From assembly GCA_020851235.1 (NCBI GenBank), contig JADZDD010000025.1:186001-250000 (forward strand): a stretch of DNA of 64,000 nt, read 5' to 3'. Positions 25,478-59,893 of the stretch are shown here, in pieces. Below the pieces are notes generated by a model, which saw only the letters and a list, made by a program, of their open reading frames with translations, had not been told where the DNA came from and did not search any database. The position numbers were made by a program, and so were the translations under genes. This DNA comes from Burkholderiales bacterium. GTDB taxonomy: Bacteria; Pseudomonadota; Gammaproteobacteria; Burkholderiales; Casimicrobiaceae. How positions within the stretch are numbered: the stretch's first letter is position 1; every line of letters starts with the position of its first letter.

Positions 25478-27258
25478 TCGGCGCGTTCGAGCGTTCCGGT
25501 GCGGACGTCATCGACGAGCACTTGCGCGCGGCACTTGCACATATGGTGCGAAGGGGTCCGGATGGCGAAGGCACGTGGCGCGACGAAGGCGTCGTGCTTG
25601 GCCATCGCCGCCTCGCAATCATCGATCTCGACCCGCGCGCGGCCCAGCCTATGCACTCGGCCGATGGACGTTACACCATCGCCTTCAACGGCGAGATCTA
25701 CAACTACCGCGAGCTGCGCCGCGAGCTCGCGACTCAGGGTGTGTCATTTCGCACGACATCTGACACGGAGGTGATCCTTGCACTCTTCGCCCATCTAGGC
25801 GAAGCAATGCTGCCGCACCTGCAGGGCATGTTTGCCTTCGTTATCTGGGATCGATTGGCGAAGCGCGCGTTTGCGGCACGTGACCCCTATGGGATCAAAC
25901 CACTCTACTACGCTGAGACGTCCCAAGGGGCACTGGTCGCCTCACAGGTCAAGGCGCTGCTGGCGACGGGTTTGGTCTCGCGCGAGCCCGATGTTCATGG
26001 CCAGGCTGGCTTCTGGCTCCTGGGTAGCGTGCCGGAGCCGCGGACCTGGTTCAGGGCGGTTCGGGCAATGCCTGCCGGGCACTTCGCGTGGATTGAGCAG
26101 GGAAAGGTCGGACCGCCGAGGTGTTGGTGGGACATTGGCAATGCATGGCGGGCTGGCTCTGGCGATCGCAGGCCCGATTCGGAAGTGCGTGACCACGTTC
26201 GCGTTGCGCTCAAGGAGTCTGTGGCGAGGCACCTTGTCGCCGACGTGCCGGTAGGCGTGTTTCTCTCTGGAGGCATTGATTCGGGTGCGCTTGCGGGTCT
26301 GATGGTCGAGGCCGGTGCGCGTGCGCTCGAAGGGTTCACGATCACATACGACGAGTTCTCCGGACGTCCCGAGGACGAGGCACCAGTTGCGGCGCGCGTT
26401 GCCGCGCACTACGGCATCAAACACCATGTGCGGCGCGTTACGCGCGACGAGTTCCTTTCTGATCTGCCGCGTATTCTCGATGCGATGGATCAGCCGAGCA
26501 TCGATGGAATCAATACCTGGTACGCCAGCAAGGCGACCGTGGAGAAGGGCTTGAAGGTGGTGGTGTCAGGTGTCGGTGGGGACGAACTCTTCCAGGGTTA
26601 TGAGAGCTTTCGGCAACTTCCACGTCTCGTCAAGGCACGTCGAACCATGGGTGCGTTGCCGGGAGGCGTTTCCGCAATGCAGTGGTGGGCCGAGTGGCGG
26701 GCGAAACAAACGAACAACGCCCGGTGGCATTGCATGCCGGAATGGAGCAGGTCCATCGCGGGAGCATGGTGGCTGCGCCGTAGCCTGTTCGCGCCGCGCG
26801 ATCTGACGAGCCTCATGGGGGCGGACGCCGCAGACGAAGCATTGCGGGGGTTTGACGCAACGCACTATGTCCAGGCGATGAGCGGTCCGCTCTCCCAAGA
26901 CCCAAGGCTCGCGCTCGGGCAGATCGAGTCCACGACCTATCTTCGCAACCAGTTGCTTCGCGATAGTGACTGGGCGAGCATGGATCACGGGGTAGAATTG
27001 CGCACTCCGCTGGTCGATGCACGACTGTTAAGGCAAGTTCAGCCGTACTTGCCGGACTTTCGTCGTTTTCCTAACAAGGAGCTTCTTGCGCGTACGCCCG
27101 CCAATCCGCTTCCGGATAGCGTCCTTCGGCGACGCAAAACAGGCTTTGGCGTTCCAGTCGCTAGATGGCTTGCCCCGCGCCTCACTCCGAGCGGTGAATC
27201 TGGAAGCAGGGGATTGGCGAAATTGCTATCTATTCACTATGGGGCGACAGCGGCTTGA
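25465..27258 (+). CDS. AsnB-like glutamine-dependent amidotransferase (third of four)
   Basis: 597 residues. Glutaminase part: Cys2 (MCGLVGAFER), RRGPDGEGTW, HRRLAIIDLD, FNGEIYNYREL. Synthetase part: FLSGGIDSGAL near residue 267 and SGVGGDELFQGYESF, then LRDSDWASMDHGVELRTPLVD. Like its paralogues it is tightly coupled to glycosyltransferase genes on both sides (13-nt overlap upstream, 4-nt downstream). Ordinary asparagine synthesis is not excluded for any one copy, but four copies in one polysaccharide locus argues for sugar amidation. Confidence 0.86.
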   Translation: MCGLVGAFERSGADVIDEHLRAALAHMVRRGPDGEGTWRDEGVVLGHRRLAIIDLDPRAAQPMHSADGRYTIAFNGEIYNYRELRRELATQGVSFRTTSDTEVILALFAHLGEAMLPHLQGMFAFVIWDRLAKRAFAARDPYGIKPLYYAETSQGALVASQVKALLATGLVSREPDVHGQAGFWLLGSVPEPRTWFRAVRAMPAGHFAWIEQGKVGPPRCWWDIGNAWRAGSGDRRPDSEVRDHVRVALKESVARHLVADVPVGVFLSGGIDSGALAGLMVEAGARALEGFTITYDEFSGRPEDEAPVAARVAAHYGIKHHVRRVTRDEFLSDLPRILDAMDQPSIDGINTWYASKATVEKGLKVVVSGVGGDELFQGYESFRQLPRLVKARRTMGALPGGVSAMQWWAEWRAKQTNNARWHCMPEWSRSIAGAWWLRRSLFAPRDLTSLMGADAADEALRGFDATHYVQAMSGPLSQDPRLALGQIESTTYLRNQLLRDSDWASMDHGVELRTPLVDARLLRQVQPYLPDFRRFPNKELLARTPANPLPDSVLRRRKTGFGVPVARWLAPRLTPSGESGSRGLAKLLSIHYGATAA

Positions 27259-31123: not shown

Positions 31124-33034
31124 ATGTGCGGCGTGACCGGCGCGTGGGTGCGCGATCGCGATCCGGAGGACCTCCGGCAATCGATGGCGCTGCTCGCCCA
31201 TCGTGGCCCGGACGATTTGGGGGAGTTTGTTGATCGAGAGGCGGGTGTGGCGCTTGGCCACCGCCGCCTCTCCATCATCGATCTCTCGCCTTCCGGCCAC
31301 CAGCCGATGGTGTCGGAGGACGGCAATCTCGCCATCGCGTACAACGGCGAGATCTACAACTACCGCGAGCTGCGTGCCGGCTTGGAGGCTTCGGGGGTCG
31401 TGTTTCTGGGCGACTCGGACACCGAAGTGCTGCTGCGGCTCTATGCGTCGCAGGGATTGGCGGCGCTCCCGCAGCTGAACGGGATCTTCGCCTTCGCGCT
31501 GTATGACAAGCGCGCGGGCGAGCTTCTGCTGGTGCGCGATGGCCTCGGCGTGAAGCCGATGTACTTCATCGAAGACGATGACGGCTTCCGGTTCGCGAGC
31601 GAGATCAAGGGGCTGGCACCGTGGATCCCGCGTGGCGCACAGCTCGACGTGGATGCCCTGCATCGGTACCTAACATTTCTCTGGTGTCCTGGAACGAGGA
31701 CGCCGTTCGCCGCGGTACGCAAGCTCGCGCCGGGCGAGGCGATCCGCGTTCGCGATGGACGGATAGTCGAGCGCTGGAATTGGTATGAGCCACCCGTGGT
31801 CCGCCCTGTACGGCGAGCATCGGTACCTGCTGACCCGATCGGCGAGGTACGGGAGGCGGTTCGTCGCGCGGTGACGCGGCAGCTCGTCTCGGACGTTCCG
31901 GTAGGAGCGTTCCTGTCCGGTGGGCTGGATTCGAGTGCGGTCACGGCGTTCGCGCGGGAGCGGTTGCCTGATCTGCGTTGCTTCACGATCGAACCGATGG
32001 GCGGCACGGACGAGGGCGAGGCCGCCGACCTGCCCTACGCGCGCAAGGTGGCGGCGCATCTCGGCGTGCGCCTCGACGTCGTCAGCATCGACTCTTCACG
32101 CATGGCGAGCGACCTCGACGCAATGGTCTGGATGCTCGACGAGCCGCTCGCTGATCCCGCGCCGCTCAATGTGCTCTATATCAGTCGGCTCGCGCGTGAG
32201 GCGGGTATCAAGGTGCTGCTGTCGGGTGCCGGGGGAGACGACCTTTTCACCGGCTATCGTCGCCACCTGGCGCTGCGCTACGAGCGCTGGTGGTCGTGGT
32301 TTCCGGCGTCGGTCAGGAGCAGTCTCGACGGCGCGGCACAACGTCTCGATCAGCGCGTGGCATGGAAGCGGCGCCTGGCGCGGCTGCTGTCGGGCGCAGG
32401 CGCATCGGGCGATTCACGGCTCGCGGCGTACTTCGCATGGGCGCGACGCGACGACCTGGTTGCGCTCTACGGCGAACGCATGCGCGCGGCGGCCGAGTCG
32501 GCGCGCGCGGAGCAGCCGATGCTCGATTTCCTGGCGCGCGTCGATCCTTCGCGCTCGCCGCTCGATCGCATGCTGGCGCTCGAGCAGCGCTTCTTCCTCG
32601 CCGACCACAACCTGCTCTACACGGACAAGATGAGCATGGCGGCGGGCGTCGAGGTGCGCGTCCCTTTCCTCGATCCCGAACTCGTCGATCTCGCGGCGCG
32701 AATTCCGGACCGGTACAAGCAACGCGGGCGCGTCGGCAAATGGGTCCTCAAGAAGGCGATGGAGCCGCTGCTGCCGCGCGAGATCATCTATCGGCCCAAG
32801 ACCGGGTTCGGGGCGCCGTTGCGTCGCTGGATGCGGCACGAGCTGCGGGATCTCGTCGGGGAGTTATTGTCGGAGGCGAGCCTGCGTCGGCGCGGGCTGT
32901 TCGATCCGCAGGGCGTGCGCAGGCTGATCGAGGACAATGACGCCGGCCGCCGCGACGGGGCGTACACGCTGCTATCGCTGCTTTGCATCGAGATCTGGTG
33001 CAGGAGGTTCGTCGACCAGCCCGAGGGGGGGTGA
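31124..33034 (+). CDS. AsnB-like glutamine-dependent amidotransferase (fourth of four)
   Basis: 636 residues. Cys2 is present (MCGVTGAWVR), with AHRGPDDLGEF, HRRLSIIDLS and YNGEIYNYREL; then FLSGGLDSSAV near residue 264, SGAGGDDLFTGYRRHL and LLYTDKMSMAAGVEVRVPFL. Its higher GC content sets it apart from the first two copies, so it may have a separate origin. Stop and next start overlap by one base (TGATG). Probable sugar carboxyl amidation. Confidence 0.87.
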   Translation: MCGVTGAWVRDRDPEDLRQSMALLAHRGPDDLGEFVDREAGVALGHRRLSIIDLSPSGHQPMVSEDGNLAIAYNGEIYNYRELRAGLEASGVVFLGDSDTEVLLRLYASQGLAALPQLNGIFAFALYDKRAGELLLVRDGLGVKPMYFIEDDDGFRFASEIKGLAPWIPRGAQLDVDALHRYLTFLWCPGTRTPFAAVRKLAPGEAIRVRDGRIVERWNWYEPPVVRPVRRASVPADPIGEVREAVRRAVTRQLVSDVPVGAFLSGGLDSSAVTAFARERLPDLRCFTIEPMGGTDEGEAADLPYARKVAAHLGVRLDVVSIDSSRMASDLDAMVWMLDEPLADPAPLNVLYISRLAREAGIKVLLSGAGGDDLFTGYRRHLALRYERWWSWFPASVRSSLDGAAQRLDQRVAWKRRLARLLSGAGASGDSRLAAYFAWARRDDLVALYGERMRAAAESARAEQPMLDFLARVDPSRSPLDRMLALEQRFFLADHNLLYTDKMSMAAGVEVRVPFLDPELVDLAARIPDRYKQRGRVGKWVLKKAMEPLLPREIIYRPKTGFGAPLRRWMRHELRDLVGELLSEASLRRRGLFDPQGVRRLIEDNDAGRRDGAYTLLSLLCIEIWCRRFVDQPEGG

Positions 33035-47829: not shown

Positions 47830-48126
47830 CTATGACGATCGCACGTCCTCGAAGCTGATCGACATTCTCTTGCCAATCGCTCTGGCTGCCCTCGCAAGCG
47901 TTGCGAGAGTCACCGACGGATTGGTCGGATCGAGGAGCCGGTCGAGTTGTCCGCGGCTCGTGGCCATCCGCCGCGCCATCTCGGTCTTCGTGACGCGCCG
48001 TTCCGCCATGGCGTGCGCGATCATTGAGGCAACGACCTTCTTGATCGCCGCAGCTTCGACTTCTTCGATGATGTCCTCGGCACGAAGGAACGCGTCGAAA
48101 TCCGAACCGATATGCCGATGGCTCAT
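47830..48126 (-). CDS. HigA-like XRE antitoxin
   Basis: 98 residues. The HTH is MAERRVTKTEMARRMATSRG followed by QLDRLLDPTNPSVTLATLAR, typical of XRE antitoxins of HigA type; the N-terminal part (FLRAEDIIEEVEAAAIKKVV) would contact the toxin. It starts inside the toxin gene end (ATGA overlap), toxin first, as in hig operons. Confidence 0.86.
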   Translation of the reverse strand: MSHRHIGSDFDAFLRAEDIIEEVEAAAIKKVVASMIAHAMAERRVTKTEMARRMATSRGQLDRLLDPTNPSVTLATLARAARAIGKRMSISFEDVRSS

Positions 48127-48491
48127 TCGTCACCTCGCAAACACTTCAGCCGATCGCGGGCCAGTTCCAGATCGGATCGACGGGTTCTCCGGTCTTTCTT
48201 GATGAAGCCATGGAGAAGGACCATCGTATTCCCTTCGAACGTGAACAGCACCCGTGCAATCCGGTTCTCGAGCTTCGTGCGGACTTCCCAGATGTCGCCT
48301 GCGATGTGCTCGATCAAGGGCAGACCGAGCGGCCAGCCGAACTGTGCCGCCTTGATGTTTTCACCGATAGCCTTTTTCTCGTGCTTGGGTAGCGCCTGAA
48401 GCCATTCGCGAACCGGCTCCGAGCCCGACATTGACGCTCGAAAGAACCGGACTTCGAGCTTCGGCAGTCCTGACCGCGGCAATCGTATCAT
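48123..48491 (-). CDS. HigB-like RelE-superfamily toxin (Gp49 type)
   Basis: 122 residues. Seen: LEVRFFRASMSGSEPVREWL, then LPLIEHIAGDIWEVRTKLENRIARVLFTFEGNTMVLLHGFIKKDRR, the phage Gp49/HigB fold with its basic catalytic C-terminal part. First gene of the pair; the A/T-richer bases around 48485-48500 are the likely promoter/operator. It sits between the polysaccharide and lasso blocks. Confidence 0.86.
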   Translation of the reverse strand: MIRLPRSGLPKLEVRFFRASMSGSEPVREWLQALPKHEKKAIGENIKAAQFGWPLGLPLIEHIAGDIWEVRTKLENRIARVLFTFEGNTMVLLHGFIKKDRRTRRSDLELARDRLKCLRGDE

Positions 48492-48700: not shown

Positions 48701-50347
48701 TTATCGGCCGTCCATCCGCACGATGCGATGCGCGACCGCGAGACTCGCGGGGCGATGCGTGATGAGGAGCACGGTGCGGCCCGCGAGCGCCTCGCGCGCA
48801 CCATCGAGGAATTCGCGCTCCCCTTGCGGGTCGAACATCGCGGTGGCTTCGTCGAGGATGAGGATCGGCGGATCCTTGACGAGGGCGCGGGCGAGCGCGA
48901 CCCGCTGCTGCTGACCTCCCGACAATCGCGCGCCGCGGTCGCCGACGAGCGTGTCGTAACCTTCCGGCAGCGCGGTGATGAAATCGTGCGCGCGGGCGAG
49001 TCGCGCCGCACGCTCGATCGCCTCGTCGGTCGCATCGGCCCGGCCGTAGGCGATGTTGTCGCGCACGCTCGCGTGGAAGAGCAGCACGTGCTGCGGCACG
49101 ATGCCGATCTGGCGACGCAGGCTCGCGAGCGTCACGTCCGCGATGTCGTGGCCATCGATGGTGATGGTGCCGCTGGCGGGCTCGTGGAAGCGCAGCAGGA
49201 GATGGACGAGCGTGCTCTTGCCGGCGCCGTTGGGGCCGACGATGCCTACGGTTTCGCCGGCCGCGATGCGCAGCGTGAGGTCGTCGAGCACGCGAGTGCG
49301 TCCCGGATACGCGAATGTCACGTTCGTGAAGGCGATGTCGCCGCGCACCTGCGGTAGCGGGGTGCCCGCGTCGAGCGGCGGCTCGGGCACCTCGTCGAGT
49401 GCGCGCACGAGGCGCGCAAGGGCGCCACGTGTGGACTGGGTGCGGCCGTAGACGTCGGCGAGCCCGGAAACGGGTCGCGTCAGCACGAGCGCGTAGAGGA
49501 GAAAGCTCACGAGCTCCGCGGGTGTCATTGCGCCCCCGGCGAGCTTCGCACCTCCCAACCCCAGCAGCGCAACGATGCCGGCCGCCGCGATGAACTGGAG
49601 CGCCGGTCCCAGTGCCGCCTGGAGGCGGATCTGCCGCGAGGTGAGATGCAGCACCCGTTCGATCTGCGCGCGGTAGCGCGTCGATTCGAGCCCTTCGCGG
49701 GTGAACGACTTGATCGCCGGCAGCAGGCCCAGGTTCTCGTCGGCGATCGCGATGGCCGCCGCGTGCTCGTCCTGCAGCGTCGCGGCAAGCGGGCGCAATC
49801 GGCGGCCGAGGATCTTCACGACGAGGTAGAAGAGCGGCACCGCGATCAATGCAAGGAGTGCGAGCGCGGGCTGCAGGCGGAACATGAGCACCGCGGCACC
49901 GGCGACGGTCAAGATGAGCGGCACGAGCGTCACCGCGGTGCCGGTGAGGTAGTCGCCGACGACGTAGACGTCGCGGGTGAGCAGTGCCAGCGTCTCGCCG
50001 TGGCGGCGCTGCTGGAAGAAGCCGAGCGGCAGCGCCTGCAAGTGATCGTAGAGGCGAACCTTGAGGTCCGACGCGATACGCTCCGCGGTGCGGCCGAGGA
50101 GCCAACCGTTGGTAAAGCGCAGCAGCGCCTGCACCGCGAAGAGGGCGAGCAGCGCAACGAGGATCGCCGCGGTCGCCGCACCGGCAACAGCTTCGCCGGG
50201 CAGGAGCGCGCCGGCGAGCTTGCCGCCCTGCCACGGCACGGCGAGCGCTGCGGCACTCTCCGCGAGCATGAGGACCGTGCAAAGCGCGAGCGGACCGCGG
50301 TAGGGGACGGCGAAGGCCGCGAGCGTGCGCAGGTCGTTGGAGAGCAT
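48701..50347 (-). CDS. Lasso-peptide ABC exporter (half-transporter, permease plus ATPase)
   Basis: 548 residues from ATG 50347. The N-terminal exporter domain has about six hydrophobic segments (GPLALCTVLMLAESAAALAV onwards; GFFQQRRHGETLALLTRDVY). The ATPase domain shows Walker A GPNGAGKST, Q-loop IGIVPQHVLLF, signature LSGGQQQRVALARAL, Walker B ILILDEATAMFD and H-loop THR. No peptidase domain, so it would export mature peptide, as lasso D proteins do, and confer self-protection. It lies 16 nt after the nucleotidyltransferase gene on the same strand. Role inferred from the cluster. Confidence 0.88.
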   Translation of the reverse strand: MLSNDLRTLAAFAVPYRGPLALCTVLMLAESAAALAVPWQGGKLAGALLPGEAVAGAATAAILVALLALFAVQALLRFTNGWLLGRTAERIASDLKVRLYDHLQALPLGFFQQRRHGETLALLTRDVYVVGDYLTGTAVTLVPLILTVAGAAVLMFRLQPALALLALIAVPLFYLVVKILGRRLRPLAATLQDEHAAAIAIADENLGLLPAIKSFTREGLESTRYRAQIERVLHLTSRQIRLQAALGPALQFIAAAGIVALLGLGGAKLAGGAMTPAELVSFLLYALVLTRPVSGLADVYGRTQSTRGALARLVRALDEVPEPPLDAGTPLPQVRGDIAFTNVTFAYPGRTRVLDDLTLRIAAGETVGIVGPNGAGKSTLVHLLLRFHEPASGTITIDGHDIADVTLASLRRQIGIVPQHVLLFHASVRDNIAYGRADATDEAIERAARLARAHDFITALPEGYDTLVGDRGARLSGGQQQRVALARALVKDPPILILDEATAMFDPQGEREFLDGAREALAGRTVLLITHRPASLAVAHRIVRMDGR

Positions 50348-50363
50348 GGCGATCCGTTGGGGA

Positions 50364-51554
50364 TCAGCGCTTGCGTGCAGCGATGCCGCCGAGCCAGCGT
50401 CGCGCGTGCAGGAGCGCAAGCGCACTCTTCCTCGCCTCGGGAAAGCGTTCGCGCAGGTAATCGGCCTCGGGGAGCGCCCGGCCGGCGAGGTAGGCAAGGC
50501 GCGTGTGCAGCGTCGGCAGCGCACGCAGTTCGAGCCACTCGCGGCGCCATCGCCCGGCGCGCAGGAGTTCGGCGCCGGAGGCGGCAGCGGGACTGCGCTC
50601 GAGCGCTGCGATCAAGGCGCCGACGTGCGGCGAGGCCAGGCATTGCGCGCACCGGCGCAGGCCGTCGAGCGCGATCGCTGCGACGCGCTTGTCCTCGACG
50701 CCGCGGACGAAGTCGGCGCGCCCGGCGTCATCCATCGCATCGGCCAGGACCCGGATGTCGTGGAGCCAGATCAGGCGATCGCCAAACTCCGCTGCGACGA
50801 AGACGTTGTTGGCGGCACGGTGCAGCAGCGCGACGGTCAGTGCATGAGCATCCCCGAGACCGCGCGCATGCACGCCCAAGGCGGCGATGGGCCGTGACGC
50901 GTCGACGAGTTCGTCGAACGAGTACAGCCACGCGAACGATTGCGCGTTGCTCAGGCGCCAGTGCAAGTCGATGGTCCAGCTCTGACCGTGGGCACCGACG
51001 CGCGTCATCTCGGCCTGATAACCGACGAAGCGGCCGGCGGGGCCGCTCACCCGCCGGTAGCCCAGCTCGCGCAGGATGCGTCGCGCAGCGTCCTGGTGGA
51101 ATGGCGCCACCAGCAGGTCGACGTCGGCGCGTGGCCGCAAGGCCGGTGCGTCGTAGTGCGTGTACGCGAGCGCGCCTCCCTTCAGTAGCAGCGGCGCGAT
51201 CCCGTGCCGCGCGAGCTCGTCCAGCACGCGCTCGAGTTCGGCACGCTGCACGACCTCGTCGATCGCGCCGACCAGCGCGTCTTCGCGGCAGGCGCGTCGG
51301 ATCGGCTCGGGCCACGATCGCCAAGGGGTGGGGCTGGCGTCGTGCGTCGTGTCGCGCCCGCCGGTGGCGTTTGCCACGTCGGCCAGGCTCGCGGCCGCCT
51401 CCCCTTGCCGCAGGCGGGCATCGACGAGCGGACTCACGCCGTGGTGGCGCGCGGCACGCAGGAACGCATCGACCGCCGCCGCGTCGTCGCGAGGCCACGG
51501 CGGCGCTTCACCTCGAAGGAGCGCGCAAAGAAGAGCGTGGGGGGCGAAGGGCAT
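50364..51554 (-). CDS. Nucleotidyltransferase-fold protein of the lasso cluster
   Basis: 396 residues of the NTP_transf_5 type. Seen: the nucleotidyltransferase motif region LLLKGGALAYTHYDAPALRPRADVDLLV, with the paired aspartates of ADVDLLV, then SWTIDLHWRLSN giving the third acidic position (DLHW). Helical C-terminal region with ALLHRAANNVFVAAEFGDRLIWLHDIRVL. Homologues accompany HPr-kinase-like proteins in several proteobacterial lasso clusters; what they modify is not established for this type. Cotranscribed with the exporter and divergent from the kinase-like gene. Confidence 0.8.
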   Translation of the reverse strand: MPFAPHALLCALLRGEAPPWPRDDAAAVDAFLRAARHHGVSPLVDARLRQGEAAASLADVANATGGRDTTHDASPTPWRSWPEPIRRACREDALVGAIDEVVQRAELERVLDELARHGIAPLLLKGGALAYTHYDAPALRPRADVDLLVAPFHQDAARRILRELGYRRVSGPAGRFVGYQAEMTRVGAHGQSWTIDLHWRLSNAQSFAWLYSFDELVDASRPIAALGVHARGLGDAHALTVALLHRAANNVFVAAEFGDRLIWLHDIRVLADAMDDAGRADFVRGVEDKRVAAIALDGLRRCAQCLASPHVGALIAALERSPAAASGAELLRAGRWRREWLELRALPTLHTRLAYLAGRALPEADYLRERFPEARKSALALLHARRWLGGIAARKR

Positions 51555-51791
51555 CGGATCGGTCAGCGTGCGCCGCGATCGATCCCGACCCGGCGTGGGG
51601 TACTGCTTGGCGTGAGCACCCCATTATCGCGCCCGACCGACCGCCACGGTGGGGTCGGCCGCCGGTTGCGCGCAGGCGTGCGCGGTCTTCGCCGGTTGCG
51701 GCCGCGATGCCATCGTGGCGTTCTTGCGCGTCGTCGCGGGGTACACTGCCGCGCGTCATCGTCGAGCGCCGCAATCGGCGTCGGCTGTCCC
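51555..51791. promoter_or_regulatory. Divergent intergenic region of the lasso cluster
   Basis: 237 nt separating the leftward nucleotidyltransferase/exporter genes from the rightward kinase/cyclase genes. It must carry promoters for both arms. No clear -35/-10 pair stands out on either strand and I see no palindromic operator. Confidence 0.35.
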
Positions 51792-52634
51792 GTGTCATCG
51801 ACCCGCAATCCACCGTCCCCGACCTTTCACGCCGTGCTCGCGGGCGTGCGTATCACCAGCGACCGTCCGCTGCCGGAGCTTCCGGTCGGTGGAGAGTACG
51901 ACCTCGACGTCGACGTTCGCTTCGTGGCGGAGCGCGACGCGGCGACCGGGGCACGCGCCGGTCCGCCAGCCGCCGGCACGCGGCCCGATGACACCTACGC
52001 CTTGCCAGCATCGACCCGTCAGCGCGGGTGGATTCACGCGAACGGACGCGAGGTCGTCATCACCGAGCCGCCAGGCGGTTGCGCCGACGTTGCCGCCGCG
52101 TTGCGTGGCGTCGTTCCCTTCGCTTCCGCCCTGCAAGGCCGGGTCATCCTGCACGCTTCGGCGGTTGCGTGCCCCGAGGGCATCCACGCCTTCGTCGGCG
52201 CGAGCGGCGTCGGCAAGTCGACGCTGGCGAAACATCTCGGCGCGCGCGGGTGGCCGATCGTGGCGGACGATCTCACGCCGTGTCGCATCGAGGGCGCCAC
52301 GGTGCGCGTGCCGTTGCCCGCCGCACTCGGCGAAGCGGTGGCGTGTCCGGGATTGCGCGCGATCCACTTCCTGTCGCGCTCGCAGCGGATCGCGCGCGTG
52401 CAGCACGACGCACTCGCGGCTCCGGTGGCCATCAGGGAGCTCCTCTGGCATGGGTTCAGCGACCTCGACGCGCCGGACCTGTGGGCGAAACACTTCGTCG
52501 CGTGCGCGGACATCGCCCGCCGCGTGCCCTCGTACGCGCTCGTGGTGCCGGACGAGCGCGGGCGCGTGGCGGAGATTGCAGACGCGGTGCGCGACGTCTT
52601 GACCGCATCGGGCCTGTCGCCGGCAGCGCGCTGA
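51792..52634 (+). CDS. HPr-kinase-like serine kinase of the lasso cluster
   Basis: 280 residues, if started at GTG 51792; an in-frame GTG at 51837 is an alternative. Seen: a P-loop GASGVGKST at about residues 136-144, followed by the HprK-type IVADDLTPC (Asp-Asp) and a C-terminal helical end. The N-terminal HprK domain is absent, as in the lasso-associated kinases that phosphorylate the C-terminal Ser of the precursor in paeninodin-type systems. Neither precursor here ends in Ser, so the acceptor would have to be different. Only 4 nt separate it from the cyclase gene. Confidence 0.85.
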   Translation: MSSTRNPPSPTFHAVLAGVRITSDRPLPELPVGGEYDLDVDVRFVAERDAATGARAGPPAAGTRPDDTYALPASTRQRGWIHANGREVVITEPPGGCADVAAALRGVVPFASALQGRVILHASAVACPEGIHAFVGASGVGKSTLAKHLGARGWPIVADDLTPCRIEGATVRVPLPAALGEAVACPGLRAIHFLSRSQRIARVQHDALAAPVAIRELLWHGFSDLDAPDLWAKHFVACADIARRVPSYALVVPDERGRVAEIADAVRDVLTASGLSPAAR

Positions 52635-52638
52635 AGCG

Positions 52639-54573
52639 ATGGCGGGCCTCACCGGAATCGTGCACTGGGACGGCAGTGCCGCCCAGGTCGCGACGATCCG
52701 CGCGATGCTCGACACGATCCGCCATCGCGGCCCCGATGGGCTCTTTGCCGCGGCCCACGGCAGCGTGGGCTTGGGGCACGCGCGCCTCGCGCTCGACGTA
52801 GCCGAACGTCGACAGCCGCAACCCGTGTCCACGCCCGACGGGCGCTATCGCCTCGTCGCCGACGCGCGCCTGTCCAATCGCCGCGACTTGCGGCAGGCGC
52901 TTGCAACCACAGCCTGGCTTGGTGACGCGCCCATCGACGCGGAGATCCTCGTCGCGGCGTACGCGCGCTGGGGCGACAAGGCGGTGCAGGCGTTACGCGG
53001 CGATTTTGCCTTTGTCGTGTGGGACGACACGACACGCACGCTGTACGCGGCGCGCGACCCCTTCGGCGTGAAGCCATTCTTCTACACGACCGATGCGGCG
53101 CGGTTTGCCTTCGGCTCCGAGCCCAAGGCGCTTCTCACGCTCCCTGGATTCCGCGCGATACCGGACGAGGCTGCGCTCGTCGAACTCCTCGTCACGGGCC
53201 GGCCTCGCGCAACCGAGGCGACGTTCCACGCAGGGATCACGCGCCTGCGGGGGGCGCACGCGCTGCAGGCGAGCGCACAGGGCGTGCGCGTGACGCGCTG
53301 GTGGAATCCCGGCGCCGACGAAGCGCCGGCACGGCAGCTGCCCGACGACGAGTATCCGCGACGCTTCTACCTGCACTTGCGGCAGGCCGTCGCGCGTGCG
53401 CTCGACGTCGAGGTGCCGGTGGCCATCGAATTGAGCGGCGGTTACGACTCGTCATCGATCGCCGTCACCGCGGCCGACCTCCACACCGATCCACAATGCG
53501 CGCTGCCGCCGATCCATACGCTGTCGCAGCGCTACCCCGGACTGCCGTGCGACGAGGGCGAGATGATCGATGCGGTGCGCGCGGTCTCGCCGTTTCCGGC
53601 GATCCGCTTCGACGTTGCCGTTGCCGACCCGACCCGCGGCTTCGATGCGGAGTTCCACAAGAGCGATGCACCGCGGGTGGACATCTCCTGGGAGCGTCGG
53701 GAGAGTGAATCCCAACACCTCGCAGCCGCGGGGTGCCGTGTGGTGCTGACCGGTATCGGCGGCGATGAGCTTTCCTGGGATCCCGATTTCGCAGCGGACC
53801 TGTGGCGAAGCCGGCGCTATCTCGCGGCGTTGCGCTATTGCCTCACCGACCCGCGCGTGCGGCGCGATCGCGATCGGCGCGCCTGCTTGCTGCGGCTTGC
53901 ACGCTTTGCCACCCCTGCCGTGGTGAAGCGCTTCGTCCGGTGTGTGCGCCCGGCCGCCGCCACTCCCTTGCCGTCGTGGCTCACTGCACGTGCCGGCGCC
54001 GCATTTCGCGCGCGCGAAGCGGCGGCGAGGGCGCGTGCGGCGCCGCGATCATTTGCGCAGGACGCCGTGCGACGTTGGCTCGATGCGCCGGAGTTCCAGG
54101 CGCTGCTCGAGGATCAGGAGCGCCAGTCGGCGTGGTGCGGCATCGAACGTCGCCATCCGTTTCTCGACCGCGATCTGGTCGAGTACGTGCTGGCGATTCC
54201 CTGGCAGGCTCGCTACCGACAGCCGGGCGCGTTCAAGACGCTCCTGGTGCGTGCGCTGGGAGCACGCCTGCCCGAGCGCATCCGCGACAGGAACGGAAAG
54301 ACGGTGTTCGATGCCTATTTCCTCGCACTGTATGGCGCCGGGGCAGCGTCGTTGCGGGCGCGGCTCGAGGCCACCGCGCACTGGGCCTCCGCGGCCGTGG
54401 TCGAGCGCGAGCCCTTGCTCGCGGCGGTCGAGCGATCCGCGTTGCCGGGCGCCCACACGACCTTCGGCGAGGTGTCGCTTCCGTTGGCCGCCGTGCTCGT
54501 CGAGTTCTGGTCGCGCCGCCTTTCGCCGCGCGCCCAAGGGGCTCCCCCGAGCGGGCAGACGGCAGGCCGTTAG
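52639..54573 (+). CDS. Lasso peptide cyclase (asparagine synthetase-like, C protein)
   Basis: 644 residues. Architecture of class B asparagine synthetase, but the second residue is Ala (MAGLTGIVHW) where the glutaminase needs Cys, so no ammonia can be made from glutamine. This is the hallmark of lasso cyclases, which adenylate a core Asp/Glu side chain and join it to the N terminus. The ATP site is intact: LSGGYDSSS around residues 265-273 and TGIGGDELSWD. C-terminal block RQPGAFKTLLVRALGARLP. Diverged from all four polysaccharide amidotransferases in this window. Directly upstream of the precursor genes. Confidence 0.93.
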   Translation: MAGLTGIVHWDGSAAQVATIRAMLDTIRHRGPDGLFAAAHGSVGLGHARLALDVAERRQPQPVSTPDGRYRLVADARLSNRRDLRQALATTAWLGDAPIDAEILVAAYARWGDKAVQALRGDFAFVVWDDTTRTLYAARDPFGVKPFFYTTDAARFAFGSEPKALLTLPGFRAIPDEAALVELLVTGRPRATEATFHAGITRLRGAHALQASAQGVRVTRWWNPGADEAPARQLPDDEYPRRFYLHLRQAVARALDVEVPVAIELSGGYDSSSIAVTAADLHTDPQCALPPIHTLSQRYPGLPCDEGEMIDAVRAVSPFPAIRFDVAVADPTRGFDAEFHKSDAPRVDISWERRESESQHLAAAGCRVVLTGIGGDELSWDPDFAADLWRSRRYLAALRYCLTDPRVRRDRDRRACLLRLARFATPAVVKRFVRCVRPAAATPLPSWLTARAGAAFRAREAAARARAAPRSFAQDAVRRWLDAPEFQALLEDQERQSAWCGIERRHPFLDRDLVEYVLAIPWQARYRQPGAFKTLLVRALGARLPERIRDRNGKTVFDAYFLALYGAGAASLRARLEATAHWASAAVVEREPLLAAVERSALPGAHTTFGEVSLPLAAVLVEFWSRRLSPRAQGAPPSGQTAGR

Positions 54574-54612
54574 CCGGGGGACGCTGCGGAGTCGCCGGAT
54601 GCCGGCTTTGCC

Positions 54613-54640
54613 TTGCGTGATTCGCGGCGCACCCTACAAT
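54613..54640 (+). promoter_or_regulatory. Predicted sigma70 promoter of the precursor peptides
   Basis: TTGCGT (54613-54618), 16-nt spacer, TACAAT (54635-54640), located 69 nt upstream of the first precursor start, in a gap that is otherwise GC-rich. An extra promoter here would give precursor mRNA in excess over the enzymes, common in lasso clusters. Confidence 0.5.
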
Positions 54641-54709
54641 AGGCAAGGTTCTTCCCCTGCCGCACGCGGCGGGGTCGTTCCACGTGAGGCCACCGACAGG
54701 ACGGATGCG

Positions 54710-54886
54710 ATGAATCCCGCAACTTTCGACACCCCCGCGCCGGCGCGCAGCGAACCCGTCTCTCCAGCCGGGCAGCGGCGCTATCACCCGCCGGTGTGCC
54801 GACCGCTGGGGGACTTGCGGCGCGTGACGCTCAAGAGCGGGCGCTCTCGGGACAGCAACGCCGATTTTCCCAGCTATCAGCCCTAG
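54710..54886 (+). CDS. Lasso peptide precursor 1
   Basis: 58 residues from ATG 54710 with AGGACGG about 6 nt upstream. Leader (residues 1-40) has the YxxP motif Y25HPP28 that B1/RRE proteins recognise, then CRPLGDLRRVT ending at Thr40; Thr is the penultimate leader residue in nearly all lasso precursors. After it: LKSGRSRDSNADFPSYQP to the stop. Counting core residue 1 as Lys42, Asp48 is residue 7; an alternative core starting at Gly44 puts Asp52 at position 9. Core boundary is therefore uncertain. No Ser at the C terminus. The next precursor follows 14 nt downstream. Confidence 0.86.
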   Translation: MNPATFDTPAPARSEPVSPAGQRRYHPPVCRPLGDLRRVTLKSGRSRDSNADFPSYQP

Positions 54887-54900
54887 CCCGTACGCGTTCC

Positions 54901-55092
54901 ATGCAGCGTGCGCGCATGCGCGCCGTCGTTGTGTCCGATGTGGATCCGACGACCGTCGCCGGCACCGCTTTCGGGCCTGCGCGCAAGCGCTACGCGGCCC
55001 CGGCGTGTCGGGACCTCGGTGCGGTGCATCGGGTGACGCGAAAGACCGGCGGCGACACCGACAATTCGAAGCAGCACCCGACGCGACGGTGA
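54901..55092 (+). CDS. Lasso peptide precursor 2
   Basis: 63 residues from ATG 54901 (ATG 54916 is an alternative). The leader has the same pattern as precursor 1: R30-Y31-AAP34, ACRDLG and HRVT ending at Thr46. The core region is RKTGGDTDNSKQHPTRR. Shared with precursor 1 are K-[S/T]-G directly after the Thr-x pair and an Asp exactly eight residues after the Thr (Asp54). If the core began at Gly50 there would be no acidic residue at positions 7-9, so the Gly-first model fails for this copy. The stop overlaps the methyltransferase start (GTGA), so the two genes are translationally coupled. Confidence 0.84.
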   Translation: MQRARMRAVVVSDVDPTTVAGTAFGPARKRYAAPACRDLGAVHRVTRKTGGDTDNSKQHPTRR

Positions 55093-55886
55093 CGCCCGGC
55101 GGAGGGGGAGCGAAGCGCGTTCGTCTGTTCATCCGCGCCGATGAATGGCAGCGGCGCGGCGCGGCGGCGCTGCAAGCGCTGCACCAGGGCTGGTGGCTGG
55201 GCTGGCTCGATCACCGCGATCTCGACGATCTTGCGCGCCGGCAGTACGCCCGCTGGCCACGCTACCGCGACGACACGTACAACACCAGCGGCTTGACACG
55301 CTGGGAGGCCGACGCCGTTCGCGCGCACTTTCCTGCCGAGGGTGCGATCCTCGTCGCTGCGGCCGGCGGCGGACGCGAAGTCGTGGCCCTCGCCCGGTTG
55401 GGTTACCGGGTGGAAGGCTTCGATTGCGTCGAGGCCCTGGTCGCGTGTGGCCGCGAGACGTTGATGCGCTTCGGCGTGAATGCGCGCCTCGAACTCGCCC
55501 CGCCCGGAGGGATCCCCGAGGGGCTCGGTCACCACGTCGGTGCAATCGTCGGCTGGGGTGGTTACATGCACATCCCCGGCCGCGGCGCGCGCATCGCTTT
55601 CCTGCGCGGACTGCGGCGACACGTCGACGCCGGCGCCCCGCTGCTCGTCTCGTTCTTCACGCGGACCGGGCCATCGCGGCGCCTCGTGTGGACGCAGCGG
55701 ATCGCCCGCGCGCTGCGCCGCCTGCGGCGAAGCCCCGATCCGGTCGAATACGGCGACACGCTCGATCGGACGTTCGATCACCTGTTCACCAAAGACGAAA
55801 TCGCGCAGGAGCTGGCGGCGGCGGACTTCGCGCTCGTCAGTTACGCCGAGACACCGTACGGGCACGCCGTGGGTCGCGCGGTGTGA
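55089..55886 (+). CDS. Class I methyltransferase of the lasso cluster
   Basis: 265 residues from GTG 55089, overlapping the second precursor's stop. Seen: motif I ILVAAAGGGREVVALARLGY then VEGFD as the acidic residue that binds the SAM ribose, and an N-terminal Trp/Arg-rich region (RADEWQRRGAAALQALHQGW). Known lasso methyltransferases methylate the C-terminal carboxylate or side chains; which applies here cannot be seen. Its tight coupling to the precursor gene argues that the peptide is the substrate. The 3' end overlaps the convergent B2 gene by 50 nt. Confidence 0.8.
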   Translation: MTPGGGGAKRVRLFIRADEWQRRGAAALQALHQGWWLGWLDHRDLDDLARRQYARWPRYRDDTYNTSGLTRWEADAVRAHFPAEGAILVAAAGGGREVVALARLGYRVEGFDCVEALVACGRETLMRFGVNARLELAPPGGIPEGLGHHVGAIVGWGGYMHIPGRGARIAFLRGLRRHVDAGAPLLVSFFTRTGPSRRLVWTQRIARALRRLRRSPDPVEYGDTLDRTFDHLFTKDEIAQELAAADFALVSYAETPYGHAVGRAV

Positions 55887-56349
55887 GCGCGCAAGCGTCG
55901 GGCGGCGTCGTGCCACCGGGCGGCGCAAGCGCTGCAGCAAACGCGGCGAAGGTTGCAAGATGCGCATCGTCCTCGCCCAGCGCCACGCCACCGCACTCGA
56001 CCCACGCATGCGCTTCGAGCGCTTCGGCGCCGCGCCGTGCGCCAAGGCGCAATTCACAGGCGATGCCCTCGCGTTGCAGCAGCCGCCACAGCACGACCGA
56101 GCGGTGCAGGCAGGCGAGGCGCAGCGGCAGGCGTGCCGCCGCGACGGCGACGAGCCGCGCGATCGCCCGCGCGCGGGCGAGGTCGGGGGGCTCCGCTGTC
56201 ACGCTGCTCTTCGCGGGTTCGCTTGCGGCCGCAGGTCGAAAGCCGGTGGATGCCACGGTGAATCTTGCGTGGACGAGCATCAAAGCCGCACGCACGAGGA
56301 GCTGCCGCTCGGCCCACGACAGCGCGGCGAGGTGGCGCCAGTCACCCAT
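55837..56349 (-). CDS. Lasso peptide B2 leader peptidase (transglutaminase-like)
   Basis: 170 residues from ATG 56349. Cysteine-protease triad candidates: Cys80 in RLACLHRSVVLWRLLQREGI, His114 in EAHAWVE and Asp127 in LGEDD, matching the McjB C-terminal family pattern. It removes the leader after Thr-x. B1 is encoded upstream as a separate gene that overlaps the B2 start by 8 nt, the split-B arrangement. Convergent with the methyltransferase. Confidence 0.92.
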   Translation of the reverse strand: MGDWRHLAALSWAERQLLVRAALMLVHARFTVASTGFRPAAASEPAKSSVTAEPPDLARARAIARLVAVAAARLPLRLACLHRSVVLWRLLQREGIACELRLGARRGAEALEAHAWVECGGVALGEDDAHLATFAAFAAALAPPGGTTPPDACALTPRDPRRARTVSRRN

Positions 56350-56608
56350 CGGTCACGACGACGAGCTTGCGTTTGGCGAGCGTGGCGATGAGGGCATCGA
56401 GGTCGCGGGCGAGGACGTCCTCGGCCACGTCGTAGCGCGCGAGGAGCGCGCCTCGCGCTGCACCCACCTCGCCGTGTGCGGCAAGCGCCTTCCAGAAGTC
56501 GAGGCCGACGTCGTCGAGACCGAAGTACTCGCCGGTCTCGAGATTGAGGAGCACGCCCTCGTCGTCGAGTTCGGTCGAAAGCACCGTGTCGGGGATCGTT
56601 ATTCGCAT
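56342..56608 (-). CDS. Lasso peptide B1, PqqD-like RiPP recognition element
   Basis: 88 residues. Typical PqqD/RRE fold features: three N-terminal strands with DDEGVLLNLETGEYFGLDDV (the L-N-x-x-T-G-x-Y-x-L-x-x-x-G signature) followed by an amphipathic helix pair (FWKALAAHGEVGAARGALLA and LARDLDALIATLAKRKLVVV). It binds the YxxP leader motif and presents the precursor to B2 and the cyclase. Promoter expected in the 141-nt divergent gap shared with the Wza-like gene. Confidence 0.93.
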   Translation of the reverse strand: MRITIPDTVLSTELDDEGVLLNLETGEYFGLDDVGLDFWKALAAHGEVGAARGALLARYDVAEDVLARDLDALIATLAKRKLVVVTDG

Positions 56609-56749: not shown

Positions 56750-57589
56750 TTGCACGTGATTTGGACCCTTATTCCGTCGAGCCGCGGCACGCGGTGGCGC
56801 CGTTGGCAGGTCGCTACCGCGGTCGTGGTCTTCGCGCTGGCGGGTTCGGTCGCGCACGCACAGGCCGAGGCAGCCGATGCGCCGCCACCGCCGTCGTACG
56901 CGGTCAATGCCCCGGGAAGCCCGATGCTTGCTCCCGTGCCGGCGCCCGGACCGAGCGGGCCCGCGCCGATCGCGGGCAATACGCCGCCGGCAACTCCGTT
57001 GCAGCCGGGGGAGACCGGCCCGCGCGACTACCGGATCGGTGCGCAGGACCTCCTCGAGATCCGCGTCTACGGGATCGACGACCTGAAGCGCGACGTCCGC
57101 GTCAATTCGCGCGGCATGGTGACGTTGCCGCTGATCGGTCCGGTCGAGGTCGGCGGACTCACGAGCGAGGACGCCGAGGCGCTGATCGCGGCGAAGTACG
57201 CCAAGGATTACCTGCAGGATCCGCAGGTCTCGGTGTTCATCAAGGAGTTCACCAGCCAGCGGATCACCGTCGAGGGCGCCGTCGCGCGCCCGGGCATCTA
57301 CCCCATTCGGGGCGACACGACGCTCGTGCAGGCGATCGCGCTTGCTGGAGGGCAGGGGCAGCTGCCCGACCTCAACGAGGTCATGGTGTTCCGTCTCGAG
57401 GCGGGCCAGCGCCGCGCCATCACCTACGACCTCATCAAGATTCGCAGTGGCGAGATCCCGGACCCGAAGCTCGTGAACGAGGATATCGTCGTCGTCAAGC
57501 GCGAGGCCAATCGCGTGGTCCTGCGCGATTCGGTCTTCGGTGACGTGATCAACATCCTCAATCCGATGAATTACCTGCCGCGATGGTGA
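56750..57589 (+). CDS. Wza-like polysaccharide export protein
   Basis: 279 residues if started at TTG 56750; GTG 56756 is an alternative. Signal peptide region VATAVVVFALAGSVAHA; no lipobox Cys is visible. A Pro/Ala-rich linker follows, then the Poly_export domain (DYRIGAQDLLEIRVYGIDDL, VTLPLIGPVEVGGLTSEDAE) and SLBB domain (RITVEGAVARPGIYPI). Forms, in the family, the outer-membrane/periplasmic channel for capsular or exopolysaccharide. Nine nt upstream of the Wzc-like kinase gene. Confidence 0.92.
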   Translation: MHVIWTLIPSSRGTRWRRWQVATAVVVFALAGSVAHAQAEAADAPPPPSYAVNAPGSPMLAPVPAPGPSGPAPIAGNTPPATPLQPGETGPRDYRIGAQDLLEIRVYGIDDLKRDVRVNSRGMVTLPLIGPVEVGGLTSEDAEALIAAKYAKDYLQDPQVSVFIKEFTSQRITVEGAVARPGIYPIRGDTTLVQAIALAGGQGQLPDLNEVMVFRLEAGQRRAITYDLIKIRSGEIPDPKLVNEDIVVVKREANRVVLRDSVFGDVINILNPMNYLPRW

Positions 57590-57598
57590 CCCTCGCCC

Positions 57599-59893
57599 AT
57601 GCCCGACAACGACGCGCCGCGTAATCCGCCCGCCGCCGCCGCCGGAGCGCTGCCGGCTCGACCGTCCACCGCGCTATCGACCTACGTTGCCCCCGCCCTC
57701 GCGCCGGAGATCGACGGCGACGACGACGCGATCCACCTGCGTGACCTGTGGCGCGTCGTCGTCAAGCGCAAGTGGGTGGTGCTCGCCGTGCTGGTCATCG
57801 TCGTCCTCACGGGACTTGCCGCGACGATGATGGCGACACCGATCTATCGCTCTTCGATCACGCTCAAGATCGAGCGCGAGGCGAGCAAGATCGTCGACTT
57901 CAAGGGAGCGCCGGTCGAGCCGCAGGAATACGGCGACATCGATTTCTATCGCACGCAGTACGAGCTCCTGAAGAGCCGGTCGCTCGCCGAGCGCGTCGTG
58001 CGCCAACTCGATCTCAAGCAGCGTTCCGCGGCAACGCCCGAGCCCACGACGCCGTGGTGGAGCAAGCTCGGCGCGGCGCTCTTCCCGCGCTCGGGTGATG
58101 CACCGGCAGATGCGTCCGAGGAGCCCTCACCCACCGCGGCCGACGGCGATGCCGCGGCCGTCGGCGCGTTCATGGGCTCGCTCACCGTCGAGCCGGTGCG
58201 CAATTCGCGGCTCGTGCGCGTGCTCTTCGACTCGCCTGATCGTGAGCTCGCCGCCGAGGCGCTGAATGCACTTGCGCAGAACTTCATCGCGCTGTCGCTC
58301 GAGCGGCGCTTCGATGCGTCGTCGTACGCCAAGGCGTTCCTCGAGGAGAAGCTCGCGCAGACCAAGGCGAAGCTGGAGGAATCCGAGCGCGCGCTCGTCG
58401 CCTTCCAGCGCGAGCAGCAGATCATCAACGTCGACGACAAGCAGAACGTCCTCGCGCAGACGCTCGGGGCGTACAACGCGACGGCGGCGAAGGTCGGCGA
58501 GGAACGCATGCGGGCCGAGGCGCTGTACCGGGAGTTTCGCGACAACCCCGCGTCGTCGCCGCAGATGCTCGACAACAAGGCGATGTCGGCGCTGCGCGAG
58601 CAGCGCACGAAACTGCAGGTCGAATACCAGGACCTCTCCCGCATCTACAAACCCGCGTTTCCGAAGATGCAACAGCTCGCGGCGGCGATCGAGGAGGTGG
58701 ACAAGAAGATCGCCGAGGAGACCGATCTTGCACGCCGCTCGATCGAAGGGAGCTACAAGGCCGCGGTGCAGCAAGAGGCCGCCGTCAAGACCAAGCTCGA
58801 CCAGGCGAAGAAGGACATGCTCGACCTGCAGGGGCGCAGCATCCGTTTCGGGATCCTGAAGCGCGAGGTCGACACCAATCGTTCGCTCTACGACGGCCTG
58901 TTGCAGCGGCTGAAGGAGGTTGGCGTCGAGGCGGGCGTGGGCACCAACAACGTCTCGGTCGTCGACCCGGCGATCGTCGCGCGCGCGCCGTACAAGCCCA
59001 ACCTCAGGCTCAATCTGCAACTCGCCGGCGCCCTGGGGCTCCTCCTGGGCATCGGGCTCGCGTTCTTCCTCGAGTATCTCGACGACACGATGCAGCGTCC
59101 CGACGACATGGAGCGCATCGCGCGCCTGCCGGTGCTGGGCGTCATTCCGCTCGTGAAGCAGCGCAAGGCGTCGCGCGAGCCTCCCTTGGCGCTGCAGGCG
59201 CATACCGATGCCCGCTCGACGTTTGCCGAGGCGTATCGCTCGATGCGTACCGCGCTGCAGTTCTCCACGCGCGAGGGCGCACCGCATCAGCTCGTCGTGA
59301 CGAGTACGGGGACCGCCGAGGGCAAGTCGACGACCGCGGTCGCGCTCGCCATCAACTTCGCGCAGATCGGCCAGGCGACGCTGTTGATCGACGCCGACCT
59401 GCGCAATCCCTCGCTGCATGCGATGCTGGGGCTCGACAACAGTCGTGGCCTGTCCAATTACCTCTCGGGGGATCTGCCGGCGTTGAGCGTCGTGCGCATC
59501 ACGACGATCCCCAATCTGTACGCGATCCCCGCAGGCCCGCTGCCGCCCAACCCGGTCGAGCTCCTGTCGGGTCCGAAGATGCTCGGGCTGCTCTCCGACC
59601 TCGAGCGGCGCTTCCCGTCGATCGTGCTCGATTCGCCGCCGGTGCTGGGGCTCGCCGATGCGCTCGTGCTCGGCAATCAGGTGGGGTCGATGGTGTTCGT
59701 CGTCGCGGCCGGGTCGACCCGCAAGGCGCACATGCGCGCGGCGCTGAAGCGACTGCGCCAGGCAAGCGTGACGCCGATCGGTGCGGTGATGACGAAGGTG
59801 GACATGCGCGACGGACGTTACGGCTACGAAAGCGCGTACTACTACTATCGGAGCACGAACGACGCTCCGAAGCTCGCGCGGAGTCCCGCCTGA
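57599..59893 (+). CDS. Wzz/Wzc-like tyrosine autokinase for polysaccharide chain export
   Basis: 764 residues. N-terminal Wzz domain with two membrane segments (WVVLAVLVIVVLTGLAATMM and LQLAGALGLLLGIGLAFFL) bracketing a long periplasmic coiled coil. The C-terminal BY-kinase has Walker A TSTGTAEGKSTTAVAL near residue 570, Walker A' LLIDADLRNPSLHAMLG, Walker B SIVLDSPPVL, and a terminal tyrosine cluster (Tyr741, Tyr743, Tyr747-750). It regulates polymer length and export. The partner phosphatase is not in the window. Confidence 0.95.
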   Translation: MPDNDAPRNPPAAAAGALPARPSTALSTYVAPALAPEIDGDDDAIHLRDLWRVVVKRKWVVLAVLVIVVLTGLAATMMATPIYRSSITLKIEREASKIVDFKGAPVEPQEYGDIDFYRTQYELLKSRSLAERVVRQLDLKQRSAATPEPTTPWWSKLGAALFPRSGDAPADASEEPSPTAADGDAAAVGAFMGSLTVEPVRNSRLVRVLFDSPDRELAAEALNALAQNFIALSLERRFDASSYAKAFLEEKLAQTKAKLEESERALVAFQREQQIINVDDKQNVLAQTLGAYNATAAKVGEERMRAEALYREFRDNPASSPQMLDNKAMSALREQRTKLQVEYQDLSRIYKPAFPKMQQLAAAIEEVDKKIAEETDLARRSIEGSYKAAVQQEAAVKTKLDQAKKDMLDLQGRSIRFGILKREVDTNRSLYDGLLQRLKEVGVEAGVGTNNVSVVDPAIVARAPYKPNLRLNLQLAGALGLLLGIGLAFFLEYLDDTMQRPDDMERIARLPVLGVIPLVKQRKASREPPLALQAHTDARSTFAEAYRSMRTALQFSTREGAPHQLVVTSTGTAEGKSTTAVALAINFAQIGQATLLIDADLRNPSLHAMLGLDNSRGLSNYLSGDLPALSVVRITTIPNLYAIPAGPLPPNPVELLSGPKMLGLLSDLERRFPSIVLDSPPVLGLADALVLGNQVGSMVFVVAAGSTRKAHMRAALKRLRQASVTPIGAVMTKVDMRDGRYGYESAYYYYRSTNDAPKLARSPA

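Follow-up and report, generated by a model that had tools for sequence, protein, structure and literature searches.

A predicted kinase/nucleotidyltransferase-type lasso peptide cluster with a linked methyltransferase beside a polysaccharide-export locus of a Burkholderiales bacterium

Introduction

The function of lasso peptides in the producing organism is often unclear. Their rings span 7-9 residues (PMC8498205), and the leader is marked by Tyr(-17), Pro(-14) and Leu(-12), in most cases also by Thr(-2) (PMC10368454). The kinases PadeK, ThcoK, SyanK and PsmK modify a C-terminal Ser, after which PsmN adds one or two hexoses to the phospho-Ser, while a nucleotidylation step by PsmN is left possible (PMC9266682). 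BsfK of the Bradymonas bsf cluster modifies Ser3 of the ring (PMC10368454). StspM of lassomycin-type clusters, which is modelled on mitomycin 7-O-methyltransferase, esterifies the C-terminus (PMC9266682, PMC8498205). Here, we investigate a candidate lasso cluster of nine genes (D, N, K, C, A1, A2, MT, B2 and B1) at positions 48701-56608 of a 64,000-nt stretch (genome G000, contig 25, 186001-250000), called the window in the following.

With the bsf cluster (BsfA, B1, B2, C, D, K and N), the locus shares the split B1/B2, the kinase and nucleotidyltransferase genes, Tyr and Pro at -17/-14 and an identical spacing of kinase residues (PMC10368454). On the other hand, BsfA has Ile(-2), Gly1, a phosphorylated Ser3 and an Asp8 ring, whereas Thr(-2), Lys1, Ser/Thr2 and Asp7 are found here; bsf furthermore has one precursor and no methyltransferase named in the available parts of PMC10368454, compared to two precursors and MT here. 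The pseudomycoidin (psm) and paeninodin (pade) clusters share the HprK-type kinase, the exporter and the split B1/B2, psm also the N gene. Their kinases act on the C-terminal Ser, which is absent from the five precursors discussed below, and no such methyltransferase is mentioned in the available parts of PMC9266682 and PMC8498205. A methyltransferase beside lasso genes is shared with the StspM clusters; MT itself shows weak matches to the generic Methyltransf_25/23 and daptide_MTase models only. The ring size predicted here is that of the seven-residue-ring lasso peptides. The xanthomonins close such a ring between Gly1 and Glu7, compared to a predicted Lys1-Asp7 here.

That is, the core claim of a lasso cluster of the kinase/nucleotidyltransferase kind is an ordinary one. 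The Lys1-Asp7/MT subtype appears to be new, and so, most notably, does the association with an exopolysaccharide locus. Neither this linkage nor the Lys1-Asp7/MT core was found described among the titles and abstracts listed from the open-licence literature or in the available parts of PMC9266682, PMC8498205, PMC13352647 and PMC10368454.

Results

A sequence-only reading had proposed the lasso cluster, with nine genes within 7.9 kb in arms that face three ways. All nine genes are present at 48701-56608. Domain searches agree with each assignment, with K, C and MT below the curated cut-offs of the specific models, and the orientation is indeed D-N leftward, K-C-A1-A2-MT rightward and B1-B2 leftward. 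The features are as follows, where G003 is a genome of the same genus:

48701..50347, minus strand: D, ATP-binding cassette (ABC) exporter with membrane and ATPase domains (PF00664 E 1.2e-44, PF00005 E 1.8e-37); start refined to the ATG at 50347
50364..51554, minus strand: N, NTP_transf_5 protein (PF14907 E 2.5e-33)
51792..52634, plus strand: K, HprK-type precursor kinase, GTG start assumed (weak matches TIGR04352 E 1.1e-5 and PF07475 E 8.6e-4, both below cut-off)
52639..54573, plus strand: C, AsnB-like lasso cyclase with Ala2 for Cys2 and an SGGYDS loop (NF033535 E 6e-84, PF00733 E 1.1e-33)
54613..54640, plus strand: putative promoter of A1-A2-MT, TTGCGT-16-TACAAT (identical hexamers and spacing 5' of A1 in G003)
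54710..54886, plus strand: A1, precursor of 58 residues, predicted core KSGRSRDSNADFPSYQP (homologue in G003)
54901..55092, plus strand: A2, precursor of 63 residues from the first of two in-frame ATGs, predicted core KTGGDTDNSKQHPTRR (homologue in G003)
55089..55886, plus strand: MT, class I S-adenosylmethionine methyltransferase (matches below cut-off), whose GTG start codon at 55089 sits on the A2 stop
55837..56349, minus strand: B2, leader peptidase with Cys80 and His114 in ATG numbering (NF033537 lasso_biosyn_B2 71.5 bits, cut-off 33)
56342..56608, minus strand: B1, PqqD-like leader-recognition protein (PF05402 E 1.4e-15; TbiB1 E 9.6e-12)

The 3' ends of MT and B2 overlap (55837-55886). 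No tRNA gene and no Rfam match was found in the window. Judged by their sequences, the nine genes are a complete predicted set for two lasso peptides of an unusual, methyltransferase-linked subtype.

The lasso assignment is carried by B1, B2 and the cyclase, which all score best with lasso families. The Cys and His of B2 are present in 19/19 aligned B2 proteins, the closest solved chain to B1 is TbiB1, and C combines GATase_7 and Asn_synthase domains, with the lasso cyclase model NF033535 as its best NCBIfam match. C also lacks the glutaminase Cys, as had been claimed: Ala2 replaces Cys2, i.e., C begins with MAG while the four other AsnB-like proteins of the window begin with MCG. These four are glutamine amidotransferases with intact Cys2, encoded to the left of the lasso cluster within the polysaccharide block (15612-17537, 18766-20604, 25465-27258 and 31124-33034).

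A non-lasso PqqD/HprK peptide-modifying system of the SynChlorMet, GeoRSP or HPr-rel-A type, which would use AsnB-like and transglutaminase-like proteins, could account for weak matches to ScmD, GeoRSP PqqD, HprK_rel_A and ScmC and for HprK_rel_A being the best NCBIfam match of K. We reject it as highly improbable given that lasso families and TbiB1 are the best matches of B1 and B2, that the cyclase has Ala2 and a lasso cyclase as best model, and that the leader spacing is that of lasso precursors. With regard to its sequence, the cluster very likely performs lasso biosynthesis.

Counted from Tyr(-17), A1 and A2 show Pro(-14), Cys(-12) and Thr(-2), followed by a core that begins with Lys and has Asp7. 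No Pfam or NCBIfam family matches either precursor at E<=0.1 (both scanned without the first codon). To compare them with relatives, we used a family sample of 64 genomes, 13 of which encode a lasso B2, and a generic pattern that requires Tyr and Pro and allows T, I or V at -2. It gave 19 matches in 510,522 bases; 15, all with Thr(-2), were accepted and four with Val(-2) dropped. Since reversed sequences also yield 6 matches (2 with Thr(-2), 0/6 with K[ST]G), the generic pattern alone is not specific. The accepted precursors stem from 10 of the 13 family clusters; G789, whose B2 contig spans 5,175 bases, G794, G796 and the loci of the order outside the family contributed none. The spacing of Y(-17), P(-14) and T(-2) is exact in both window precursors and in all 15 accepted ones.

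Three family clusters contain MT, i.e., those of the window, of G003 (cores KTGPKVDNDRQQPTYTPL and KTGSSRDNAQPHLTRA) and of G795 from another genus (core KTGTKTDNSSNPTKP). All five precursors of these MT-positive clusters read Y(-17)xxP(-14)...T(-2)x followed by K-[ST]-G-x-x-x-D, such that Lys1, Ser/Thr2, Gly3 and Asp7 are common to 5/5. Lys1 occurs in 0/10 precursors from the seven MT-negative family clusters, which begin with G, S, A, M, N or Q. Relating K-[ST]-G-xxx-D to MT gives Fisher values of 3.3e-4 by precursor, 0.008 by cluster and 0.028 by lineage, to be read with care (see Discussion). From these motifs, a Lys1-Asp7 ring is the probable product.

Two further observations concern the precursors. 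Leader position -12 holds Cys, not Leu, in 4/4 precursors of the window (54710-55092) and G003 (locus L009, 11163-11612), and Val in G795. Furthermore, three clusters (L037, L038 and L049 of G250, G147 and G793) each encode 2-3 AsnB-like proteins together with two accepted precursors that differ in core type, namely Asp9-type (such as ATNMGPYCD and MMDSGPYAD) and Glu8-type, which suggests two lasso peptides per locus that share B1/B2/D.

Lasso B2 exceeds the curated cut-off in 4/22 genomes of the window's genus (G000, G003, G014 and G006). G003 holds all nine genes in identical order, with identities of 84% (B1), 69% (B2), 76% (MT), 73% (C), 62% (K), 43% (N) and 84% (D) to the window. Both precursor genes claimed by the sequence-only reading are kept there; thus neither of the outcomes it had named as refuting, i.e., a non-lasso family for the enzymes or precursors that are not conserved, occurred. 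For G014, the identities are 81% (B1), 56% (B2), 61% (N) and 76% (D) but 28% (K) and 30% (C).

We also compared the ratios of non-synonymous to synonymous substitution rates (dN/dS) between window and G003, which are 0.51 for A1, 0.27 for C, 0.26 for MT, 0.18 for B1, 0.45 for B2 and 0.47 for K. From Tyr(-17) on, A2 is identical in 17/33 residues (dN 0.41, dS 0.61). Its differences are spread evenly over the codon positions (10/12/12), so the coding status of A2 rests on the conserved motif and its position rather than on the substitution pattern. A decaying cluster that makes nothing, or an unphosphorylated peptide through an impaired kinase, would fit the fast change of both precursors and a kinase segment absent from window and G003. 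All frames are open, however, dN/dS is 0.18-0.47 for B1, MT, C, B2 and K, and the catalytic residues of the kinase are retained. The kinase gap is moreover common to two genomes whose kinases are 62% identical and therefore not a fresh lesion. We consider decay improbable.

In the cyclase tree, the three MT-positive cluster cyclases group together (support 93/94); only this branch of three lasso cyclases is used here, and the MT-positive label also took in the window's four non-lasso AsnB proteins. The B2 tree joins window and G003 with G014 (99/99) and excludes G795, a long branch, and the B1 and K trees give G795 no firm placement. Since the MT-positive cyclases group together while the B2 tree leaves out G795, it seems that Lys1 core, cyclase type and MT are passed on jointly, as one module. 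K-C-A1-A2-MT would be a specialised module between the D-N and B1-B2 arms, which are mostly genus-typical.

Beyond these clusters, a cyclase search gave one close relative (G003) and three at 27-35% identity in named genomes. At E<=1e-70, none besides the window's own was among the matches listed for 369 genomes of the class (up to 3 scored candidates in each). Among plasmids, 245 records show partial matches below 60% identity and 0 cover more than 80% of the length. MT homologues inside lasso clusters are 76% (G003) and 45% (G795) identical, and MT occurs in 3/64 family genomes, window included, always within a lasso cluster. Among the matches listed for 398 genomes of the phylum (up to 6 scored candidates in each), there is none besides the window's own, and none was found in the viral contigs or plasmids searched. 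A two-row profile gave only a weak 36-bit match (G031) in 399 genomes of the order, and the stretch around it has no B1, B2, C, D, N or K match. Given the few candidates scored per genome in the sampled searches, their negatives are soft.

To the right, the cluster adjoins a polysaccharide locus:

56750..57589, plus strand: Wza/EpsE-like polysaccharide export protein, divergent from B1 (TIGR03028 E 1.2e-26, below its cut-off; PF02563 above cut-off)
57599..59893, plus strand: Wzc-like chain-length/tyrosine autokinase of the polysaccharide locus (TIGR01007 160 bits, cut-off 108)

B1 and wza diverge from a 141-bp gap, likewise arranged in G003, which would allow shared control. The position between two polysaccharide blocks, already noted in the sequence-only reading, was borne out as the more unusual fact, with a family-wide co-occurrence of lasso cluster and export locus. 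When counting exporters at E<=1e-40, the Wza/EpsE-like exporter is present in 16 family genomes, i.e., in 13/13 lasso-positive vs. 3/51 lasso-negative ones (G786, G787 and G806; Fisher 4e-11). Including weak matches of 1e-13 to 1e-16 in three further lasso-negative genomes (G799, G017 and G013) changes this to 6/51 and 2e-9, where both Fisher values ignore shared ancestry. The pattern holds by genus at E<=1e-40, lasso-positive vs. lasso-negative (4/4 vs. 0/18 in g1, 9/9 vs. 0/8 in g2), and for genomes with a completeness of at least 90% and a contamination of at most 5% (11/11 vs. 2/27). B2 and exporter share a contig in 12/13 cases, 0.4-10.2 kb apart and head to head in 9 of these 12; G789 has them on two separate contigs of about 5 kb. 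In g1, the whole cluster stays beside Wza-Wzc and a DUF218 gene while K and C are replaced between G000 and G014.

A peptide-specific part replaced within a kept frame, together with the co-occurrence, is as expected if some lasso product serves the polysaccharide system, although a shared exchange hot-spot would look similar. We thus have to consider that a genuine lasso cluster is hitch-hiking in the polysaccharide locus, via an exchange hot-spot or one transferred island and with no functional link. The mosaic cluster would fit, with B1, B2, N and D shared with G014 while K and C differ, and an N of G003 that is only 43% identical. So would the different placement of G795 in the B2 and cyclase trees (given its long branch in the former), the toxin-antitoxin pair between DUF218 gene and D that is absent from this position in G003 and G014, the three family genomes with exporter but without lasso B2, and the neglect of shared ancestry in the Fisher values. 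Less expected from hitch-hiking is that co-occurrence is complete in two genera despite very diverged lasso enzymes and that most linked pairs are head to head. We give it somewhat less than even odds; the data suggest that lasso and polysaccharide genes may work together in this family.

Some details of the neighbourhood are worth recording. The toxin-antitoxin pair lies at 47830-48491 (minus strand) of the window, between DUF218 gene and D, and comprises a Gp49-like toxin (PF05973 E 9.9e-21) and a helix-turn-helix protein. In G003 and G014, the DUF218 gene adjoins D, and toxin and helix-turn-helix genes were not found in the stretches fetched. The loci with exporter and without lasso B2 are L053, L054 and L055 (G786, G787 and G806). 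In G787, the position directly next to the exporter, occupied by the lasso cluster in the window, is taken by a glycosyltransferase 31% identical to the one at 45.8 kb of the window.

With regard to tailoring, H121-G136-G139-G141-K142-S143-D159-D160 of K are invariant in 5/5 aligned kinases, and its catalytic residues are spaced as H148...D187 of BsfK (PMC10368454). None of the five MT-positive cores ends in Ser (ends are YQP, TRR, TPL, TRA and TKP), and Ser/Thr2 is the one hydroxyl conserved in 5/5. Given the missing C-terminal Ser, the BsfK residues kept in K, the ring Ser modified by BsfK and the conservation of Ser/Thr2, we tentatively favor the latter, at less than even odds, as the site that K may phosphorylate. 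A Pro-Ser/Thr in the tail of 4/5 MT-positive precursors is an alternative candidate site. For N, NTP_transf_5 is a fold label shared with PsmN. N furthermore contains the KGG...DVD motif. A phospho-sugar modification would be likelier than a nucleotide since the characterised PsmN attaches hexoses to phospho-Ser. The activated sugar that N would require could come from the polysaccharide locus.

MT matches Methyltransf_25 (E 0.0049) and daptide_MTase (E 1.4e-5) below cut-off, when scanned with extra upstream residues. Its predicted structure shows a class I methyltransferase fold with a predicted local distance difference test score of 67 and matches 1301 chains at E<=0.001, such that the acceptor is not distinguishable from the model. 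One acceptor candidate is Lys1, found only in MT-positive clusters; the other, by analogy to StspM, is the C-terminal carboxylate.

Discussion

From the observed genes, motifs and conservation we infer the following chemical steps. B1 would bind the YxxP...T leader of A1 and A2, K would phosphorylate the precursor, perhaps at Ser/Thr2 of the core, and B2 would cleave after residue -1, i.e., after T(-2)-L or T(-2)-R. C would then activate Asp7 and join it to the Lys1 amine, which would yield a ring of seven residues with the 9-10 residues of the tail threaded through it. N would probably add a sugar to the phosphate, MT would methylate the same precursors at a site linked to the Lys1-[ST]-G core, and D would export the products.

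As a whole, a functional lasso-peptide cluster of the kinase/nucleotidyltransferase kind with the proposed tailoring and polysaccharide setting is the best explanation, with a probability of about 0.8. Several points weigh against it. C reaches 282.8 bits compared to a cut-off of 525 for the NF033535 lasso model. About 37 residues, including RLWxDS, are present in the other three kinases aligned but missing from K of window and G003, whose specificity may therefore differ. BsfK was not observed to modify position 2 of its own substrate in the available parts of PMC10368454, which speaks against Ser/Thr2, and no Lys1 lasso peptide was found in the available parts of the articles cited. With N only 43% identical between window and G003, the flanking arms are not wholly genus-typical. 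The MT-positive cyclases may furthermore form one clade, such that the Lys1-MT association may reflect a single origin and its statistics need careful reading.

Finally, in other families of the order, the exporter is within 10.2 kb of B2 in 0/8 lasso-positive genomes (inside vs. outside the family: Fisher 4e-5, ignoring shared ancestry and cut contigs). At least one Poly_export gene is held by 7/8 of them, the nearest about 40 kb from B2 (G350) and the others on other contigs. This control is weak because the contig ends no more than 10.2 kb from B2 in 6/8 genomes (G105, G151, G187, G279, G338 and G393), which could hide a neighbour; only in G061 and G350 is B2 flanked by 10.2 kb in either direction.

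From co-occurrence and linkage we infer a peptide role tied to polysaccharide, for which we see slightly better than even chances. Going further, the lasso peptide could be a working part of the exopolysaccharide system, i.e., the K/N modifications would use the locus's own sugars and the exported peptide would stay with, or be covalently tethered to, the matrix or would control export; this specific version is unlikely as it stands. From the pairing of the Lys1-[ST]-G-xxx-Asp7 core with one methyltransferase family, a small-ring lasso scaffold that carries modifications is predicted. In two genera, the co-occurrence of diverged lasso clusters with one type of polysaccharide-export locus is complete, which points to a concrete, testable role. 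If true, a lasso peptide that acts as a matrix component and not as a free antibiotic would be a new role.

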